Assembly (NCBI GenBank): GCA_013697635.1
Contig: JACCWM010000028.1
Location: 1-60,974, forward strand
DNA: 60,974 nucleotides
Reading direction: 5' to 3'
Origin: Lujinxingiaceae bacterium
GTDB lineage: Bacteria; Myxococcota_A; Bradymonadia; Bradymonadales; Bradymonadaceae
In this document: positions 1,950 to 9,389 of the stretch, piece by piece
How positions within the stretch are numbered: position 1 is the stretch's first letter
Layout: each line of letters begins with the position of its first letter
Translations under genes and position numbers: made by a program
Notes under the pieces: model-generated
What the model was told of the DNA's origin: nothing
Databases searched by the model: none
Seen by the model: only the letters and a program-made list of their open reading frames with translations

Positions 1950-3035
1950 TCAATACCTCAAGATCATCGCAACGCGCCCACTCTTGGCCAGCGAGCCGTT
2001 ATCGACAAAGGCGACCTCGCCGCCCTTCTCGATGACGGCTTCAATGAGCTCGTCGATCACGTCGTCGATCACGTCGGGCGCGGCGACATCATCGGCCGGC
2101 GTCAAGACCAGGCCGGAGGCGTCAAGGCGTGCGGGATACTCGAAGCCGTCCTCGACGATAAGCTTTGCTCCACGTCCTTCCTGAGCCAGTCGCCAACAGA
2201 CGCCAACGGTGGTGACTGCCAGCTGGGCTCCAACTGCATCAGACAACTCCGTGAGCACCGCCTGACGGCTCGTTGCCAGGTAATCAGCGACCGCTGGCCC
2301 GACTCGCTTGCCGAGCTCGTGATCGGAGACCTTGTCGTAGTTGCCCTCAATGGTGCCAGCCAGCCAGCCCTTGTGCTGGGTGACTTCGTCGAAAAAGGCA
2401 TGATAGCGGCCGATGCCGGCGATGAACAGCGGGCGGCGATCGTTGAGAGCGCTCTTGCCAAAGGCGGCGTCGACCTGGCGAAAGAACTGACGATGACGCT
2501 CATCGCGATGCGCCGACTTGCTCACACCGATGCCACCGGGCAGCGGCGCGGAGCCGCCGGGTCCCTCGTGGACCATGGGAAATCCCTCTTCCTTGATCTC
2601 GAGGATACTGTCATGCACACCGTCGTAGAGGCGGGTGTGCTTCTCGCTCAAATGCAGCAACCAATACGACGGGCTGCGATTGAGCGTGTAGACGAGATCG
2701 CGCGTGGCGAAGGTCTCGTCGACGACGACGCGCTCACGCACCGCAAACGGCAGGTAGTAGATGCGCGCCATATCGGCGTTGGCAAAGAGCGCCAGACCGT
2801 CGAGGGTGTTGTGGTAATCGATCTGGTCGCTGAGCTCACCGAGCCGGTCGAGGACCACCTGGGCATCGCGCTTGCCAAACTCCGATTGCAGACGATCGGC
2901 GGCCTCCTTGAGCAACTTCTTGACGCGAATCGGATCCTGGCGGTTCTCCGGAGACATGCGATAGGTCGGCAACAACACCGAAACACAGGGATAGTTGCGA
3001 ACGGATGCAAGCAATTTAACGTCGTTCCTGTTCAT
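1950..3035 (-). CDS. baeRF family 3-like protein (bacterial archaeo-eukaryotic release-factor homologue)
   Basis: Cytosolic protein of 361 aa resembling the baeRF3 group of bacterial proteins related to aRF1/eRF1 and Pelota, proposed to act on stalled or hibernating ribosomes. Recognised features are the N-terminal pattern with PCVSVLLPTYR and QDPIRVKKLL, the DGLALFA strand, a PLPGGIGVSK loop where eRF1 carries its GGQ region (here GGIG, not GGQ), and the C-terminal VAFVDNGSLAKSGRVAMILRY, typical of the eRF1 domain 3 fold. The ATG follows AGAGG by 4 nt. No co-directional partner lies nearby. The family call comes from remembered sequence pattern, and the exact cellular role is not established by the sequence. 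Confidence 0.7.
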   Translation of the reverse strand: MNRNDVKLLASVRNYPCVSVLLPTYRMSPENRQDPIRVKKLLKEAADRLQSEFGKRDAQVVLDRLGELSDQIDYHNTLDGLALFANADMARIYYLPFAVRERVVVDETFATRDLVYTLNRSPSYWLLHLSEKHTRLYDGVHDSILEIKEEGFPMVHEGPGGSAPLPGGIGVSKSAHRDERHRQFFRQVDAAFGKSALNDRRPLFIAGIGRYHAFFDEVTQHKGWLAGTIEGNYDKVSDHELGKRVGPAVADYLATSRQAVLTELSDAVGAQLAVTTVGVCWRLAQEGRGAKLIVEDGFEYPARLDASGLVLTPADDVAAPDVIDDVIDELIEAVIEKGGEVAFVDNGSLAKSGRVAMILRY

Positions 3036-3122: not shown

Positions 3123-4262
3123 TTACCAACCGGGCTGTGCGTACTCGCCGGGGATGACATCCATGAGCAGGTCGAAGTGCATGCCGCGCCCACCAAGGGC
3201 GCGCTCGACGACGAAACGAATGCGGCACTCCCCCGGATTCAACGCTTGAATGAGCTGCTCGGAGTGATCGTGCACCTCGCCAAAAAATCCGCAGGTCGAT
3301 GGGGTGAGCGCGACCTTTTTTGTGGTCACGTCACCGCCACACAACCAGGCTCCACCAACGGTTGGGAACAATGCTACGTCGTAAACCTCGCCCTGAGCGA
3401 GCACGGTGGTGGTCTTACTGCGTTGACCTTGTTGATCGCGCACAAACACCGCCGGTGTCAAGTTGTCGATTGCCTGCTCGCCGACAAAGGAAAACACCAG
3501 CGCCTGTCCATCGGACTCAGGGCGCAGCACGACGCGTCCGTTGATACGCGGAGTCAGCGTCAGCCGATTGCGAAGCTCGTCGTAGCTTTTGAACTCCACC
3601 GAATCCTGGGGATCCATGGTGATCGGATACTTTCCATAGCCTCGCAAGGCCTCACCCTTGGCGTTGAGCTTGACCAGGTTGAGCGCGAGCTCGAGCTGGG
3701 TGGGATCGCTGAACACATAGGCGCCGGGCTTGTCATTTGTGCATCCGGCGTAGCGTGAATAGGGCGCGATGCCCTCGAGCAGGCGGCCAAGTCCAACGCG
3801 GGCGACCGGCTCGACGTGCACATCGAAGGTGTCGATGAGCACTTCGCCTTCGATCTCGACCTCGGCCTCAAGCTTAACCGTACCCTGTGCCAGGGCTTCG
3901 ACGACGATCTTGGCCCCGTTGACCGTGCCGATGCGCATGGGCTCGATCGCGATGACTTTGAGTGCGGTTTCATCGAGTGATCGTGCGCTGATAATCTTAA
4001 GCGCCACGTGTCCCAGCGCGCAGGCGCCGCTCTCTTGGTCGCAGGCATACTCGTCGTTTTGAGGACCGACAAGTGTGATGCCCGACTTCCAACCCATGGC
4101 GAGCCCGTTGACGTTGTCGGCAAAAAACAGGCCGTTGTCGCTATTGGGAGAGAGCGCTTGGGGTGCATCGCATGCCGCGCAAAGCGCGAGAATGCTCGCC
4201 AACAAGAGCGCGATGGTGGGCAAGGAGGGTAAGTGGAGATCTTGCGATTTGATGAACGTCAC
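3123..4262 (-). CDS. Lipoprotein of unknown function
   Basis: Predicted outer-envelope lipoprotein of about 379 aa. The GTG start at 4262 gives a signal peptide with a basic/polar start, the hydrophobic run TIALLLASILALCAAC and a lipobox ending at Cys31. The open frame continues upstream to 4346, but that extension would place 28 non-signal-like residues in front and overlap the divergent promoter region, so it is disfavoured. The mature part is rich in beta-type sequence (repeated short V/T/I strands), holds about seven Cys including a CDQESGAC pair, and suggests stacked Ig-like or beta-sandwich domains. No family recognised. It is divergent from the lysyl-oxidase-like gene with a 240-bp gap. 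Confidence 0.7.
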   Translation of the reverse strand: MTFIKSQDLHLPSLPTIALLLASILALCAACDAPQALSPNSDNGLFFADNVNGLAMGWKSGITLVGPQNDEYACDQESGACALGHVALKIISARSLDETALKVIAIEPMRIGTVNGAKIVVEALAQGTVKLEAEVEIEGEVLIDTFDVHVEPVARVGLGRLLEGIAPYSRYAGCTNDKPGAYVFSDPTQLELALNLVKLNAKGEALRGYGKYPITMDPQDSVEFKSYDELRNRLTLTPRINGRVVLRPESDGQALVFSFVGEQAIDNLTPAVFVRDQQGQRSKTTTVLAQGEVYDVALFPTVGGAWLCGGDVTTKKVALTPSTCGFFGEVHDHSEQLIQALNPGECRIRFVVERALGGRGMHFDLLMDVIPGEYAQPGW

Positions 4263-4287
4263 GTCAGACCTTGAGCTTTGGCCATGG

Positions 4288-4306
4288 CCAGGCGCCGGGC
4301 GCCTGG
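4288..4306. promoter_or_regulatory. Perfect 19-bp palindrome in a divergent promoter region
   Basis: CCAGGCGCC-G-GGCGCCTGG is a perfect inverted repeat. It lies 26 bp upstream of the GTG of the minus-strand lipoprotein gene and abuts another palindrome, TGGCCATGGCCA (4279-4290). It could be an operator for both divergent genes or simply a hairpin. Confidence 0.35.
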
Positions 4307-4389
4307 CTGAGTGCGCCATCATAGAGATTGATGGAGCTTGCCTCAACCCTTATCGGCGAGGCTCGAGCGACAGGACATCTTGTCTCGAT

Positions 4390-4502: not shown

Positions 4503-5798
4503 ATGAACGAGATGGGTTGTGGGAAATACCACACTGTGGGGTTGTTCTTGAGCTTTCTTATGGCCGTGAGCGGCTGCACCCAGGGTGGTGTGAGCAATGC
4601 GCAAGACGGCAGTTTGCTGGGCGGTGCCACCGTGAAGTTCTACGCCTGGCCCCCCGTGGAGTCGACGCGCATCAACTGGGTATGGCCGGCTTCTTTTCGT
4701 CTCGACGACGCCGACTATGCCACGACGACAGCCGCGTTGAGCTGGGACGGGGCAAACTACGGCTTCGGTGCTGAGGGATCGTGTGTCAATGGCGTCAGCG
4801 AGGTCTTGCCAACCCATCGCTGGTATCGGGTGCGCGTCGATCGCCCAGGATTCTTGCCGGGCATCTTCTATCGCTACCACGGCGGCTACGAGGACCAGTG
4901 CCGCTACTTTCAGTGCGAGAGCGGTCAGTTTGCCAACGGCAGTTGCAACACGCAGCACTTTGCGTTGTGGCCAGAGAATTCGGTTCACCCTCGGCTGCCC
5001 GATCTGATCGTCGACGACCGCGACCTCAATGAGCGCTACTGGCAGTGCGCACGCATGCCCGGCAGCGCACCGGATCTAGTCGGCATCCGCGCCGCCGTTG
5101 GCACGGCCAACGTGGGCACCGGTGGTTTGCACCTCGAAGGGATCGACTTCGATCCTGCGACGCCCGAGGATGCCCGGATCATCCAGCGCATCGACTGGTC
5201 CGATGGACGCCTCGACGAGCGCGAGCTGACCAGCGCGGCCTTCGAGTTTCACCTGACCCATGACCACATTCACTTTCGCGACTGGGTGCGCATGGAGCTA
5301 ATCAGCACGCGCTCGGAGTGCGACGATCGCGGCCAGCGCCCGGCAGGCTGTGCTCAGGGCAGCGGCGGCAAGATCTCGTTTTGCATCATGGACCTGGCGC
5401 TCTTCGATGCCGAGATTCGCGACATCTACGACGGCCAACGCCGCTACCCCGATCCGCCCGCCTGCGACAGCCTGCAGCAAGGCCTGACCCAGGGCTGGAA
5501 GGACGTCTACTCGGCGCGCCTTGCCGGGCAATCGATCGTGGTCGGAACGGCCGCTGAGCTGCCCGGGCTCGAACAACGCTACTGGCTCGAGGTCGAGGTC
5601 GATCCCAATGAGCGGATCATCGAGAGCGATCGCTCCAACAACTTCTCGCGCGTCGGCGTTGATCTGCCAAGCGACCTCACGGCCTTGTGCACGAGCTCGC
5701 CGGATCGCCTCGACTGCTCCATGCCCCGAAGCCAATACACAAGCTTCGAGCAGCGCCACCAATGCCCCCAGTATCTGGAATTTCTTCAGGCGATGTAA
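4503..5798 (+). CDS. Lysyl-oxidase-like copper amine oxidase, lipoprotein
   Basis: Predicted 431-aa lipoprotein (hydrophobic run VGLFLSFLMAV, lipobox VSGC). The C-terminal half resembles the lysyl oxidase catalytic domain. It has a copper-binding HxHxH (His253, His255, His257, sequence THDHIHF). GGKISFCIMD has Lys290 at the place of the LOX lysine that becomes lysyl-tyrosylquinone. QGLTQGWKDVYSARLAGQ has Tyr336 at the place of its tyrosine partner. YWLEVEVDPNERIIESDRSNN matches the LOX segment ending in ESDYTNN. Lysyl oxidases oxidise primary amines on proteins or small molecules to aldehydes. The N-terminal half may be a carbohydrate- or protein-binding domain and is Cys-rich. The ATG at 4503 is chosen because AAGGGAG precedes it; another ATG lies 9 bp downstream. 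The open frame extends to 4338 but without a signal peptide. Confidence 0.78.
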   Translation: MNEMGCGKYHTVGLFLSFLMAVSGCTQGGVSNAQDGSLLGGATVKFYAWPPVESTRINWVWPASFRLDDADYATTTAALSWDGANYGFGAEGSCVNGVSEVLPTHRWYRVRVDRPGFLPGIFYRYHGGYEDQCRYFQCESGQFANGSCNTQHFALWPENSVHPRLPDLIVDDRDLNERYWQCARMPGSAPDLVGIRAAVGTANVGTGGLHLEGIDFDPATPEDARIIQRIDWSDGRLDERELTSAAFEFHLTHDHIHFRDWVRMELISTRSECDDRGQRPAGCAQGSGGKISFCIMDLALFDAEIRDIYDGQRRYPDPPACDSLQQGLTQGWKDVYSARLAGQSIVVGTAAELPGLEQRYWLEVEVDPNERIIESDRSNNFSRVGVDLPSDLTALCTSSPDRLDCSMPRSQYTSFEQRHQCPQYLEFLQAM

Positions 5799-5956: not shown

Positions 5957-5991
5957 AAAAACCCAGACTGCCGAAGCAGTCTGGGTTTTTT
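5957..5991. terminator. Bidirectional intrinsic terminator
   Basis: AAAAACCCAGACTGC, the loop CGAA, then GCAGTCTGGGTTTTTT: a 10-bp GC-rich core flanked by A-run and T-run, a textbook rho-independent terminator on both strands. It sits between the convergent lysyl-oxidase-like and cold-shock genes. The 158 bp upstream of it hold no recognisable gene. Confidence 0.92.
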
Positions 5992-6034: not shown

Positions 6035-6247
6035 TTAGTCAAGCGGTACAACGTTAACCGCTTGCAGACCCTTGGGACCTTGCTCAACCTCGAACTCGAC
6101 CCGCTGGGCCTCACGAAGGCTCTTGAAACCGCTACCCTGGATCGCGCTGAAGTGACAAAACACGTCATCGCCATCGGGTTGCGTCAAAAAACCAAAGCCC
6201 TTGTCATCGTTGAACCACTTCACTGTACCTTGAATCTTCCTGGACAT
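6035..6247 (-). CDS. Cold-shock-domain protein (CspA family), copy 1
   Basis: Single-stranded nucleic-acid-binding protein of 70 aa with RNP1 KGFGFL (residues 16-21) and RNP2-type VFCHF (29-33), which acts as an RNA chaperone. It differs from the second copy downstream at only 8 of 70 positions. The usual second Val of VFVHF is Cys in both copies. The start is preceded by GCAGGAGATGTAAGA, almost the same leader as copy 2, and an 18-bp element lies 60 nt upstream. It is transcribed towards the strong terminator at 5957-5991. Confidence 0.95.
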
Positions 6248-6306
6248 TCTTACATCTCCTGCAATGCTTTTGAGGAGTTCACCTGGTAAGGCTCACTCAC
6301 GATAGA

Positions 6307-6324
6307 ACGGGTTTTCACCCACAA
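6307..6324 (-). promoter_or_regulatory. Shared 18-bp upstream/leader element, copy 1
   Basis: TTGTGGGTGAAAACCCGT on the minus strand, identical to the element before the second cold-shock gene and at the same distance (about 60 nt) from the start codon. It contains GGGT-GAAA-ACCC, able to form a 4-bp hairpin with a GNRA-like loop. It could be a promoter/operator or a 5'-UTR thermosensing or autoregulatory element. Confidence 0.5.
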
Positions 6325-6439
6325 TAACTGCCGATCCGCGATAACGAACCGACACCTGACAGCCGACACTGCTCGTTTAAGCGGTGTCCGAAAATCTTCG
6401 ACGAGACACACTCGGCGAGACTTTAGAAGTTGACGGGGT

Positions 6440-6459
6440 TCAGGCCTTTTAAGGCCTGA
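6440..6459. terminator. Hairpin directly behind the second cold-shock gene
   Basis: TCAGGCCTT-TT-AAGGCCTGA, a 9-bp stem beginning 2 bp after the stop codon. There is no downstream T-run on the minus strand, so it may be an attenuating or mRNA-stabilising hairpin rather than a full terminator. Confidence 0.5.
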
Positions 6460-6461
6460 GA

Positions 6462-6674
6462 TTAGTCAATCGGTACAACGTTAACCGCTTGAAGCCCCTT
6501 GGGACCCTGCTCGACTTCGAACTCGACGTCTTGCTCCTCGCGGAGTGACTTGAAGCCGTCTCCTTGAATTGCACTGAAATGACAGAACACATCATCTCCG
6601 CCGGGTTGAGTCAAAAAGCCGTAGCCCTTGTCATCGTTGAACCACTTCACCTTTCCCTGAATCTTCTTGGACAT
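6462..6674 (-). CDS. Cold-shock-domain protein (CspA family), copy 2
   Basis: 70 aa with RNP1 KGYGFL and RNP2-type VFCHF, 62 of 70 residues identical to copy 1. The charged changes cluster in the second half (S39D, A47E, R49D), making this copy more acidic. It has its own leader with GCAGGAGAAGTAAGA before the ATG and the same 18-bp element 62 nt upstream. The pair is therefore a tandem duplication that carried its regulatory region along, with each copy probably transcribed from its own promoter. Confidence 0.95.
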
Positions 6675-7146
6675 TCTTACTTCTCCTGCAGTGCTTTGGA
6701 CGAGTCGTACTCTAGTGCCGACTCACGCCGATATTACGGGTTTTCACCCACAAAACTAACAGCTGGTCCATCAAGGGCATTCCGGCACTTGATGCCAACC
6801 GAATTCACGGTCCACACGTGGCCTCTCTGACCCCTTTTCATCGCTTTCCCTTGGCTTGCTCTTATCAGCCCGATTGGGAAAATAAAAGCGTGCTATGGAT
6901 GGGCGATGGTCAGGTGTCATGAATGGCGTTTGCATGAACGTGACCCACCATGGCAGCTTGTATTTCAAATTGCAATACCAATAAAAACTTTTTCTTAACC
7001 ACGGTTGGACCAGTCTTTGCGCGAAGATTGCCGTTTTGGAGCGTGTCCGGGTGAAGTTTCTTGTAAGTGCGCGTCAAACGTAATAAAGCTGGCCAAAGCG
7101 TGGCCGTTTTGGTTTAAGCAGACGCGCGTTTACCCGCATTGGAATT
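6675..7146. other. Gene-free stretch with the cold-shock leader
   Basis: The first 80 bp are the leader and putative promoter of the second cold-shock gene (element at 6736-6753). The remaining 390 bp are AT-richer than the surroundings. They include an A/T-rich patch near 6965-6995 and a weak TAATAA at 7080-7085 that could serve as the -10 of the following small gene. I see no convincing coding sequence or RNA gene. Confidence 0.5.
6736..6753 (-). promoter_or_regulatory. Shared 18-bp upstream/leader element, copy 2
   Basis: Exact second occurrence of TTGTGGGTGAAAACCCGT, 62 nt before the start of the second cold-shock gene. The bases around the two copies are much less conserved than the element itself. 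Confidence 0.5.
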
Positions 7147-7488
7147 ATGTCAGAGCAGCCAAAATCCTCGACTCGAGCCTCCAAACTGGCCGTATTACTC
7201 GTACTCACGGTGATCACGTGCGGTGTTGCAGCATGGACGGTTGTCAATGTCTCCGGGCTCAACGAGCCCGACCCGGCGATGGCCCAGGATTTCGCCAAAT
7301 ACTTCCAGCGCCGCTGCGTGCGTGACACCGCCAACGAAGGCGCCTGCCGCGATGTGATCGGCTTTCATCACCGGCGCTGCTTCAAGCAGACATCGCTCAA
7401 AGAGTCGCCCGACTCGTGGGGTTCGCCCTACGTTTACGACCGCGATGGCTACATGCAATGCATGCGTGAGCATCTCACGAGCGCCTAG
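7147..7488 (+). CDS. Small single-pass membrane protein with a Cys-rich exported tail
   Basis: 113 aa: a short basic cytoplasmic N-terminus, one hydrophobic segment (about residues 14-33, LAVLLVLTVITCGVAAWTVV) and an outside tail of about 80 residues. Cys residues in RRCV, GACR, RRCF and MQCM are spaced like two disulfides. No family recognised. The ribosome binding site is weak. The stop codon overlaps the stop of the convergent ABC-F gene in the tetranucleotide CTAG. Confidence 0.65.
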   Translation: MSEQPKSSTRASKLAVLLVLTVITCGVAAWTVVNVSGLNEPDPAMAQDFAKYFQRRCVRDTANEGACRDVIGFHHRRCFKQTSLKESPDSWGSPYVYDRDGYMQCMREHLTSA

Positions 7489-9389
7489 ACGCGCTCTCCG
7501 AGCGCCATCCAACGCTCCAGCGAGGCTTCGAGCTCTCGCTCGAGGGTGAGCTTCTCTTCGTGCAGCGGGGCGACGGCTTCGAAGTCATCGGCGCTGGCGA
7601 TCATCGCTTCGTTGATCGCCTCGAGGCGCGCCTCGATCTGTGCGACGCGCCGATCGAGAGTTTCGAATTCGCGTTGCTCATTAAAGGAGAGCTTTGCGCC
7701 TTGCATGGTCTTGGCAGGCACTGAAACGGCCTTGGTGACCGTCGCGGGCATCGCGGCGCGGGCGCGTTGCTCGTCGCGGGCGAGGCCTTCGCGCTCTTTT
7801 TGGCGCTCAGCCCAGAGCGTGTAGTTTCCGGGAAACTCGACGACGCTCGAATCGGGCTCAAAGCTGAGCATGTGCTCGACAGTGCGGTCGAGAAAGTAGC
7901 GGTCATGGCTGACCACGAGCACCACGCCCTCGAAGCTGTCGAGGTAGTCCTCGAGCACCGAGAGGGTCTCGACGTCGAGATCGTTTGTGGGCTCATCGAG
8001 CAGGAGCACGTTGGGCTGGCTCATCAAGATGCGCAGCAAGTACAGGCGGCGCTTCTCTCCGCCGGAGAGCTTGGCGATGTAGGTCCACTGGCGATCGCGG
8101 TCAAACAAGAAGAGTTCGAGCATCTGGGTGGCGGTCAAAAATCCATCGCTGGTCGGGATGCGATGGGCGATCTCGGTGATGTAGTCGTGCACGCGCATCG
8201 ACTCGTCGAGCTGCATCGACTCTTGGTCGTAGTATCCGATCACGACCGTGGCGCCGATCTCGACGCTGCCGCTGTCGGGCTGCACGCGGCCGGCGATGAT
8301 GTTGAGCAAGGTCGACTTTCCGGCACCGTTGGGGCCGATGATCCCGATGCGGTCGCGGCGGGTGGCGAAGTAGGTGAGATCGCGAAGCACGGTCTTGCCG
8401 TCAAAAGCCTTGGAGACGCCCTCGATTTCGATGATTTTCTTGCCCAGTCGACTCTCGAGCGTGTCGATCTCGACGCGCTGCTCGTCGCGCGCATAGCTCG
8501 TGTTGAGCAACTCGTGGGCGCGGTCGATGCGCGATTTGCTCTTGGTCGTGCGCGCCTTGGGTCCGCGGCGCAGCCACTCGAGCTCGCGCTTGGCGAGCTG
8601 CGAGCGCTTTTGCTCTTGCTGGGCCAGCGAGGCCTCACGATTGGCGCGCGACTCGAGAAATGCGCTGTAGTTGCCGCTGTGGCGGTGAACCTGGCCATTG
8701 TCGATCTCGAGGATGACATTGGTCACGCGGTCGAGAAAGTAGCGATCATGGGTGATCAGCAAGAGGCCGCTCTGTCGCTGCGCGAGATAATTCTCAAGCC
8801 AGGCCACGGTGGTGACGTCGAGATGATTGGTCGGCTCATCGAGGATGAGCAAATCGGAGGGGCGCATCAGCGCACGCGCAAGCGCCACGCGTTTTTTCTG
8901 GCCGCCGGACATCGCGCCGACCAGGGCCGTGCAGTCTTCGATGCCCAGTTTTGTCAGTGTGGTCTTGGCGTCACTCTCCAAAGTCCAGCCGTTGACCCGG
9001 TCCATCTCTTCGCCAAGCGAGGTCACGCGCTCGACCAGGGCCATCGAGCCCGTGGCGTCGAGCTCGAGCGCGCGGCAGGCCTCTTCATAGGCGCGCACGA
9101 TCTGAAAGGCCTGGGGCCCGTCGCCCAAAACGGCGTCAAGCGCGCTCAGATTGTCGTCGAGCAACGGATTTTGTGACAGATACTCGATTCGGGCATCGCG
9201 TGAATAGGTGACCTTTCCCGAGTCCTGGGCCTCGATGCCGGTGAGGATGCGAATCAGTGTGGACTTTCCTGCGCCGTTGACGCCAATGAGGCCGACCTTC
9301 TCGGTGTCGGCGATGCCAAAGGACACCTCTTTGAAGAGGCTCTGGACGCCATAGGCTTTCGACAAATTTTCGGCGGTCAATACGATCAT
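7485..9389 (-). CDS. uup: ABC-F family ATPase, Uup-like
   Basis: Cytosolic tandem ATPase of 634 aa without membrane segments. Each half has a complete set: Walker A GVNGAGKST and GPNGAGKST, signatures MSGGQKKRVALARAL and LSGGEKRRLYLLRIL, Walker B LILDEPTNHLD and LLLDEPTNDLD. An ABC-F linker rich in Arg and Lys joins them. ABC-F proteins bind the ribosomal E site and rescue or tune stalled ribosomes. The C-terminal extension (about residues 555-634, with EFETLDRRVAQIEARLEAI) is a coiled coil as in Uup, which favours Uup over EttA. The start is directly divergent from the following gene's region, with no obvious Shine-Dalgarno. Confidence 0.9.
   Translation of the reverse strand: MIVLTAENLSKAYGVQSLFKEVSFGIADTEKVGLIGVNGAGKSTLIRILTGIEAQDSGKVTYSRDARIEYLSQNPLLDDNLSALDAVLGDGPQAFQIVRAYEEACRALELDATGSMALVERVTSLGEEMDRVNGWTLESDAKTTLTKLGIEDCTALVGAMSGGQKKRVALARALMRPSDLLILDEPTNHLDVTTVAWLENYLAQRQSGLLLITHDRYFLDRVTNVILEIDNGQVHRHSGNYSAFLESRANREASLAQQEQKRSQLAKRELEWLRRGPKARTTKSKSRIDRAHELLNTSYARDEQRVEIDTLESRLGKKIIEIEGVSKAFDGKTVLRDLTYFATRRDRIGIIGPNGAGKSTLLNIIAGRVQPDSGSVEIGATVVIGYYDQESMQLDESMRVHDYITEIAHRIPTSDGFLTATQMLELFLFDRDRQWTYIAKLSGGEKRRLYLLRILMSQPNVLLLDEPTNDLDVETLSVLEDYLDSFEGVVLVVSHDRYFLDRTVEHMLSFEPDSSVVEFPGNYTLWAERQKEREGLARDEQRARAAMPATVTKAVSVPAKTMQGAKLSFNEQREFETLDRRVAQIEARLEAINEAMIASADDFEAVAPLHEEKLTLERELEASLERWMALGERV

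Follow-up and report, generated by a model that had tools for sequence, protein, structure and literature searches.

The gene at positions 4503 to 5798 of the window, the window being the whole 60,974-nucleotide stretch of DNA analysed here, encodes a predicted lipoprotein that almost certainly belongs to the lysyl oxidase (LOX) family and is quite probably an envelope-anchored oxidase of the copper/lysine tyrosylquinone (LTQ) type. It is a divergent addition to the bacterial LOX proteins and belongs to an undescribed branch, and is not the first of its kind, since LOX proteins have been known in bacteria since 2015 and are also known in myxobacteria. Some bacterial clades among its relatives lack the copper ligands and retain the Lys-Tyr pair, and for these clades and their link to hydrazine-synthase-like genes no earlier description was found in the literature searched. 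The native role of prokaryotic lysyl oxidases has been called enigmatic (PMC6452851), and a subfamily predicted to be lipid-anchored, present in multiple copies and carrying the full catalytic equipment offers a concrete target for its study. The coordinates of the features discussed below are collected in Table 1.

Table 1. Coordinates of the window gene, of neighbouring features and of the operons with LOX-like genes in related genomes.
Feature	Position	Strand	Basis or remark
Lysyl-oxidase-family lipoprotein, 431 aa	4503..5798	+	ORF; PF01186 above cut-off; family in related genomes
Predicted signal peptide with lipobox V-S-G-C25, codons 1-25	4503..4577	+	Read from sequence
N-terminal domain, residues ~26-161	4578..4985	+	Common to relatives from the window's family of genomes
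Lysyl oxidase catalytic domain, residues ~164-396	4992..5690	+	Pfam, profile alignment, VIA-align, Foldseek
Predicted copper-ligand motif HxxHxHxH (H250, H253, H255, H257)	5250..5273	+	Sequence
Lys290, predicted LTQ precursor lysine	5370..5372	+	Aligned with LOXL2 K653; invariant
Tyr336, predicted LTQ precursor tyrosine	5508..5510	+	Aligned with LOXL2 Y689; invariant
Divergently transcribed lipoprotein, no known domain	3123..4346	-	Cluster 3 in L094-L096
Strong hairpin with A-run and T-run	5957..5990	.	-24.3 kcal/mol, z -6.5
Operon of hydrazine-synthase-alpha-like, beta-gamma-fusion-like and lysyl-oxidase-like genes	L093:8126-15700, L099:7008-14826, L100:3-4945, L104:6783-13420		

The gene is a single ORF by its translation, and its ATG start is preceded by a good ribosome-binding site, AAGGGAG. 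The lipobox reported by the initial annotation is clear by eye, with Cys25 as its last residue and Thr26 following it, and this Cys is conserved in the orthologues L038-L040. The protein would be exported via the Sec pathway, lipidated at Cys25 and retained at a membrane, probably the outer one, where it would face the periplasm or the cell surface.

Assignment to the LOX family, originally suggested from the order of a few residues, is now backed by the Pfam profile, by the alignment of residues with human LOXL2 and by the predicted fold. The window protein matches the Lysyl_oxidase profile (PF01186) with an E-value of 4.5e-7 and 30.1 bits against a cut-off of 20.4, and no other Pfam family is above the cut-off. 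Copper amine oxidases of the TPQ family were considered and rejected, as the search of Pfam-A with E-values up to 10 returned no such domains; apart from Lysyl_oxidase it gave a single CARDB match below threshold. With 30 bits the protein scores modestly in Pfam when compared with the 105-138 bits of better LOX matches elsewhere in the class; neither the window protein nor any of the tested members of its subfamily was recognised by NCBIfam, and phmmer with the single window protein gave no match in the PDB. A profile of 17 relatives, searched against solved structures, gave one match, human LOXL2 (5ZE3, E 2.6e-6), in which K653 (GHKASFC) aligns with K290 and Y689 (CWDMY) with Y336, in keeping with the earlier claim that the Lys and Tyr follow the order seen in animal lysyl oxidases.

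Two AlphaFold2 models, one of the full-length protein and one of the domain, each rested on a shallow, eight-sequence alignment; the LOX domain is of moderate quality in the former, and the confidence of the latter is moderate (mean pLDDT 69). The top match in VIA-align was 5ZE3 for the full-length model (Z 12.6 over 163 residues, next fold 7.6) as well as for the domain model (Z 12.0 over 168 residues, 3.5 A, next fold 7.3). In Foldseek, 5ZE3 was the sole match of the domain model below an E-value of 0.001 (E 6.8e-6, prob 1.00), and nothing significant was found for the full-length model, in which residues 1-163 are poorly modelled. A chance resemblance or an annotation artefact, to which the Pfam score of only 30 bits and the missing NCBIfam match could be taken to point, has a negligible probability and is refuted, since the profile, the fold, the invariance of the catalytic residues and the conservation across genera all point the same way. 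The initial annotation would have given up the assignment on a predicted structure with Lys290 and Tyr336 far from the His cluster; such a distance is not a valid ground for refutation, because the two residues lie 16.6 A apart in the crystal of the LOXL2 precursor (PMC9694262).

Of the predicted catalytic residues, the HxHxH motif at 253/255/257, Lys290 in GGKISFC and Tyr336 in WKDVY stand at the positions first reported, the numbering having been verified, and the Lys-Tyr spacing is indeed 46 residues. His250, absent from the initial annotation, corresponds to the His with which the animal motif begins (human LOX H289, LOXL2 H623). The window protein thus has in common with the animal enzymes (human LOX, LOXL2; PDB 5ZE3) the HxxHxHxH motif including its first His, the Lys in KxSFC, the Tyr in DxY and the fold. 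It differs from them in the Lys-Tyr spacing, which is 35 residues there, in the absence of several disulfide cysteines, in carrying Gly for the His before the LTQ lysine, and in being a predicted lipoprotein with another N-terminal domain; it also has neither the cysteine inside the animal His motif nor the cysteine of DCQW. Among the intact copies in the phylum the Lys-Tyr distance ranges from 34 to 50 residues, and the spacing of 46 is therefore ordinary. LTQ formation in LOXL2 requires the three His, and with H623 or H652 mutated less than half of the LTQ was made (PMC9694262); the equivalent of H623 is present in the window protein, and the position of H652 is occupied by Gly289. This Gly and the missing cysteines count against the proposed enzyme. 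The three His, the Lys and the Tyr are likewise shared with the prokaryotic LOX proteins of Grau-Bove et al. 2015 (PMC4448552) and with myxobacterial LOX (PMC6508830). The first His was described as absent in bacteria (PMC4448552, PMC6508830), whereas it is found in the window protein, in its subfamily and in several other bacterial copies; L003, L004, L073, L076 and L077 are among the sequences that carry it.

For a wider view of these residues, a total of 91 LOX domains were collected from the window's phylum, from Verrucomicrobiota, Planctomycetota, Armatimonadota and Hydrogenedentota loci and from one viral contig. The three His are present in 75 of the 91 domains, every one of which (75/75) carries both the Lys and the Tyr, and K290 and Y336 are invariant in all 17 aligned relatives. 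All three His are conserved without change in the window copy, in both of its paralogues and in its three orthologues.

The window protein is probably catalytically active. H253, H255 and H257 would bind one copper, and copper and O2 would convert Tyr336 to a quinone, whose coupling to Lys290 would give LTQ. The mature enzyme would oxidise primary amines to aldehydes and release H2O2 and NH3; its targets would plausibly be lysine side chains in proteins of the envelope or matrix, and the resulting aldehydes could cross-link. Retention of the gene in a second genus, together with several of the same neighbours, favours this explanation. A prokaryotic LOX of demonstrated activity is that of Haloterrigena turkmenica, compared here by description and archaeal, unlike the window protein; after refolding with Cu it acts as an amine oxidase, and 3-aminopropionitrile inhibits it (PMC6452851). 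Its specificity is relaxed and includes taurine, glycine, aminoglycosides, polymyxin and lysine polypeptides (PMC6452851); this, along with the observation that no obvious lysine-rich partner is encoded near the window gene, speaks for an active amine oxidase of the same chemistry with small primary amines as substrates, serving nutrient use or detoxification. Such a substrate range is a credible, if rather doubtful, alternative, and the predicted lipid anchor and the additional N-terminal domain would suit an enzyme that acts on envelope macromolecules equally well.

Related genomes contain full-length relatives with identities of about 38-47%; two of them, G000:C8 and G000:C205, are paralogues from the window's own genome and are 46-47% identical to the window protein over the full length. 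An N-terminal domain of about 130 residues followed by the LOX domain is common to the window protein, the two paralogues and the relatives from the same family, whereas most prokaryotic LOX proteins consist of the LOX domain alone (PMC4448552). The invariant elements of this N-terminal domain are WPP, YR, FYRxH and Cys residues. It has no Pfam match in the window copy and no convincing relative among known families or solved structures, and one of its 12 members weakly resembles CarboxypepD_reg (E 0.046). In the phylogenetic tree, a set of 20 rows from the window's family of genomes is supported at 97 and is separate from the high-scoring LOX proteins of other families in the class. A different elaboration, a Cys-rich insert of about 200 residues between the N-terminal half of the LOX domain and the His motif, was observed in L021 and in L033/L056 (G003).

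All three His are lost in three members of the subfamily, L052 (G002), L053 (G014) and L046 (G011), which form one clade with a support of 99. Of the 21 columns of the LOX domain that do not vary among 14 sequences with three His, exactly three are lost in all members of this clade, namely the copper ligands, and the remaining 18 are retained, K290 and Y336 among them. The chance that a random loss of three columns would hit the copper ligands is 1 in 1330, a figure to be read with the columns not being independent. A second His-poor group consists of eight Hydrogenedentota-side and two Planctomycetota-side sequences, none with a full His triad and all ten with Lys and Tyr. The domains L032, L006b and L007b, on the other hand, are degenerate and have lost the Lys and Tyr along with the His. 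The tree, a quick one with some long branches, requires that the His triad was lost at least four times and the Lys-Tyr pair at least twice. The red-algal LOX-like proteins of Cyanidium caldarium (PMC6508830) and C. merolae (PMC4448552), in which the His are lost and the Lys and Tyr kept (PMC6508830, PMC4448552), are a parallel to these relatives, though they are eukaryotic, and the window gene itself differs from them in retaining its His.

Two further observations were made on these sequences. LOX-domain proteins of Hydrogenedentota and Planctomycetota with Lys and Tyr and without a full His triad comprise L183-L190, L008, L164 and L165, and the His-poor copies of Hydrogenedentota also lack the Cys that follows the LTQ lysine (C294 column). 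An intact LOX gene, L011, lies about 2.4 kb away from the degenerate L032 (G033:C70, near 14459).

Since the His-poor relatives retain both the Lys and the Tyr, these two residues can be conserved for some other reason and alone are not proof of copper/LTQ chemistry, and bacterial LOX proteins should not be called active on their basis; the window gene possesses both halves, the His triad as well as the Lys and Tyr. The same relatives bear on the proposal that the window protein is a LOX-fold protein for structure or binding and not for catalysis, with the Lys-Tyr pair and the fold serving stability and the copper site being a remnant or a plain metal-binding site. Retention of Lys, Tyr and Asp334 after loss of the His site, seen in one clade of the window's family and in the Hydrogenedentota/Planctomycetota group, agrees with this proposal, as does the presence of CARDB-like beta-sandwiches of surface proteins among the nearest other folds. 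However, a structural role alone is not expected to hold three His in register as they are held in the window copy, its paralogues and its orthologues, nor does it sit well with the Lys and Tyr being kept by every three-His domain. A purely structural or binding role is considered unlikely, and an envelope-anchored copper/LTQ-type lysyl oxidase is the preferred explanation for the window gene. The sister clade lacking exactly the three copper ligands represents a natural experiment on LTQ formation and on the role of the Lys-Tyr pair without copper.

LOX-like genes of four genomes of the window's family were found in an operon with a pair of haem genes (Table 1). The copies concerned are L093, which is the G000:C205 paralogue, and the three His-less proteins of the subfamily (L100, L104 and L099), located 19, 10, 9 and 57 bp, respectively, downstream of the haem-gene pair and in the same direction. 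Copper ligands are absent from three of these four LOX copies, which have the Lys and Tyr, and the G000 copy retains all three His; the operon therefore does not require copper loss. The haem gene nearer to LOX, which is beta-gamma-fusion-like, matches hydrazine_BC of NCBIfam with an E-value of 4e-14, a match far below the cut-off, and the haem gene farther from LOX resembles the alpha subunit (PF18582, E 3e-5; NCBIfam hydrazine_alpha, E 1e-5). The haem genes are homologues of hydrazine synthase and not hydrazine synthase itself. Within the window's family, the fusion gene occurs in four genomes, and these are the same four that have a LOX adjacent to it. None of the 20 regions examined from other families of the phylum has LOX beside a hydrazine-synthase-like cluster, and the association with haem genes is not general to His-poor LOX proteins, no CxxCH gene being found near the Hydrogenedentota copy L008. 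A 2025 survey of non-anammox hydrazine synthase homologues describes FG-GAP and ABC genes as neighbours, and lysyl oxidase is unmentioned in it (PMC12758564).

It may be speculated that the haem proteins make or use a quinone of the Lys-Tyr pair. The paralogue lineage would then consist of a copper-free LOX-fold protein in which the upstream haem proteins help to turn the pair into a quinone or to employ it in electron transfer. This is regarded as highly improbable; if true, the operon would represent a haem-coupled amine dehydrogenase or a copper-independent system of LTQ maturation.

In the genomic neighbourhood of the window gene, no operon partner was found on its own strand, and the only conserved neighbours are the divergent lipoprotein, the cold-shock genes, a hydrolase and a short ORF. 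With some additions, genomes of another genus (G013, G016, G018) repeat the arrangement [113-aa protein]-[cold-shock genes]-[LOX]-[divergent lipoprotein]-[hydrolase]-[short ORF], and the head-to-head pair of LOX and lipoprotein is kept in three genomes of another genus. The lipoprotein, for which no Pfam match was obtained, is the best candidate for a functional partner of LOX. The hairpin downstream separates LOX from the cold-shock genes that converge on it and is likely to be a bidirectional terminator.

What looks like a 1.3-kb gap behind LOX is occupied by two small tandem CspA-like cold-shock ORFs (window 6036-6680, reverse strand), whose shortness kept them off the initial ORF list, and cold-shock-like genes are also present near LOX in another genus. 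A ribosome hibernation factor (NF052287) and an ABC-F protein are ordinary neighbours (window 1950-3035 and 7485-9389 (-)), and no Rfam family was detected in the window.

A single LOX gene was encountered in two viral scans, none being present in 50,697 phage records. It is complete (L062:1719-2348; PF01186, E 4.6e-28) and is carried by a viral contig of 113.8 kb, IMGVR_UViG_3300022562_001652. It has no match in the phage collection and only distant matches, under 60% identity, in the plasmid collection. Its product has a lipobox-like start and the motifs THGHVH, HKQSFC and GWADVY, and the genes around it are of phage type; a uracil-DNA glycosylase lies upstream, and a RusA resolvase overlaps the end of the LOX gene.
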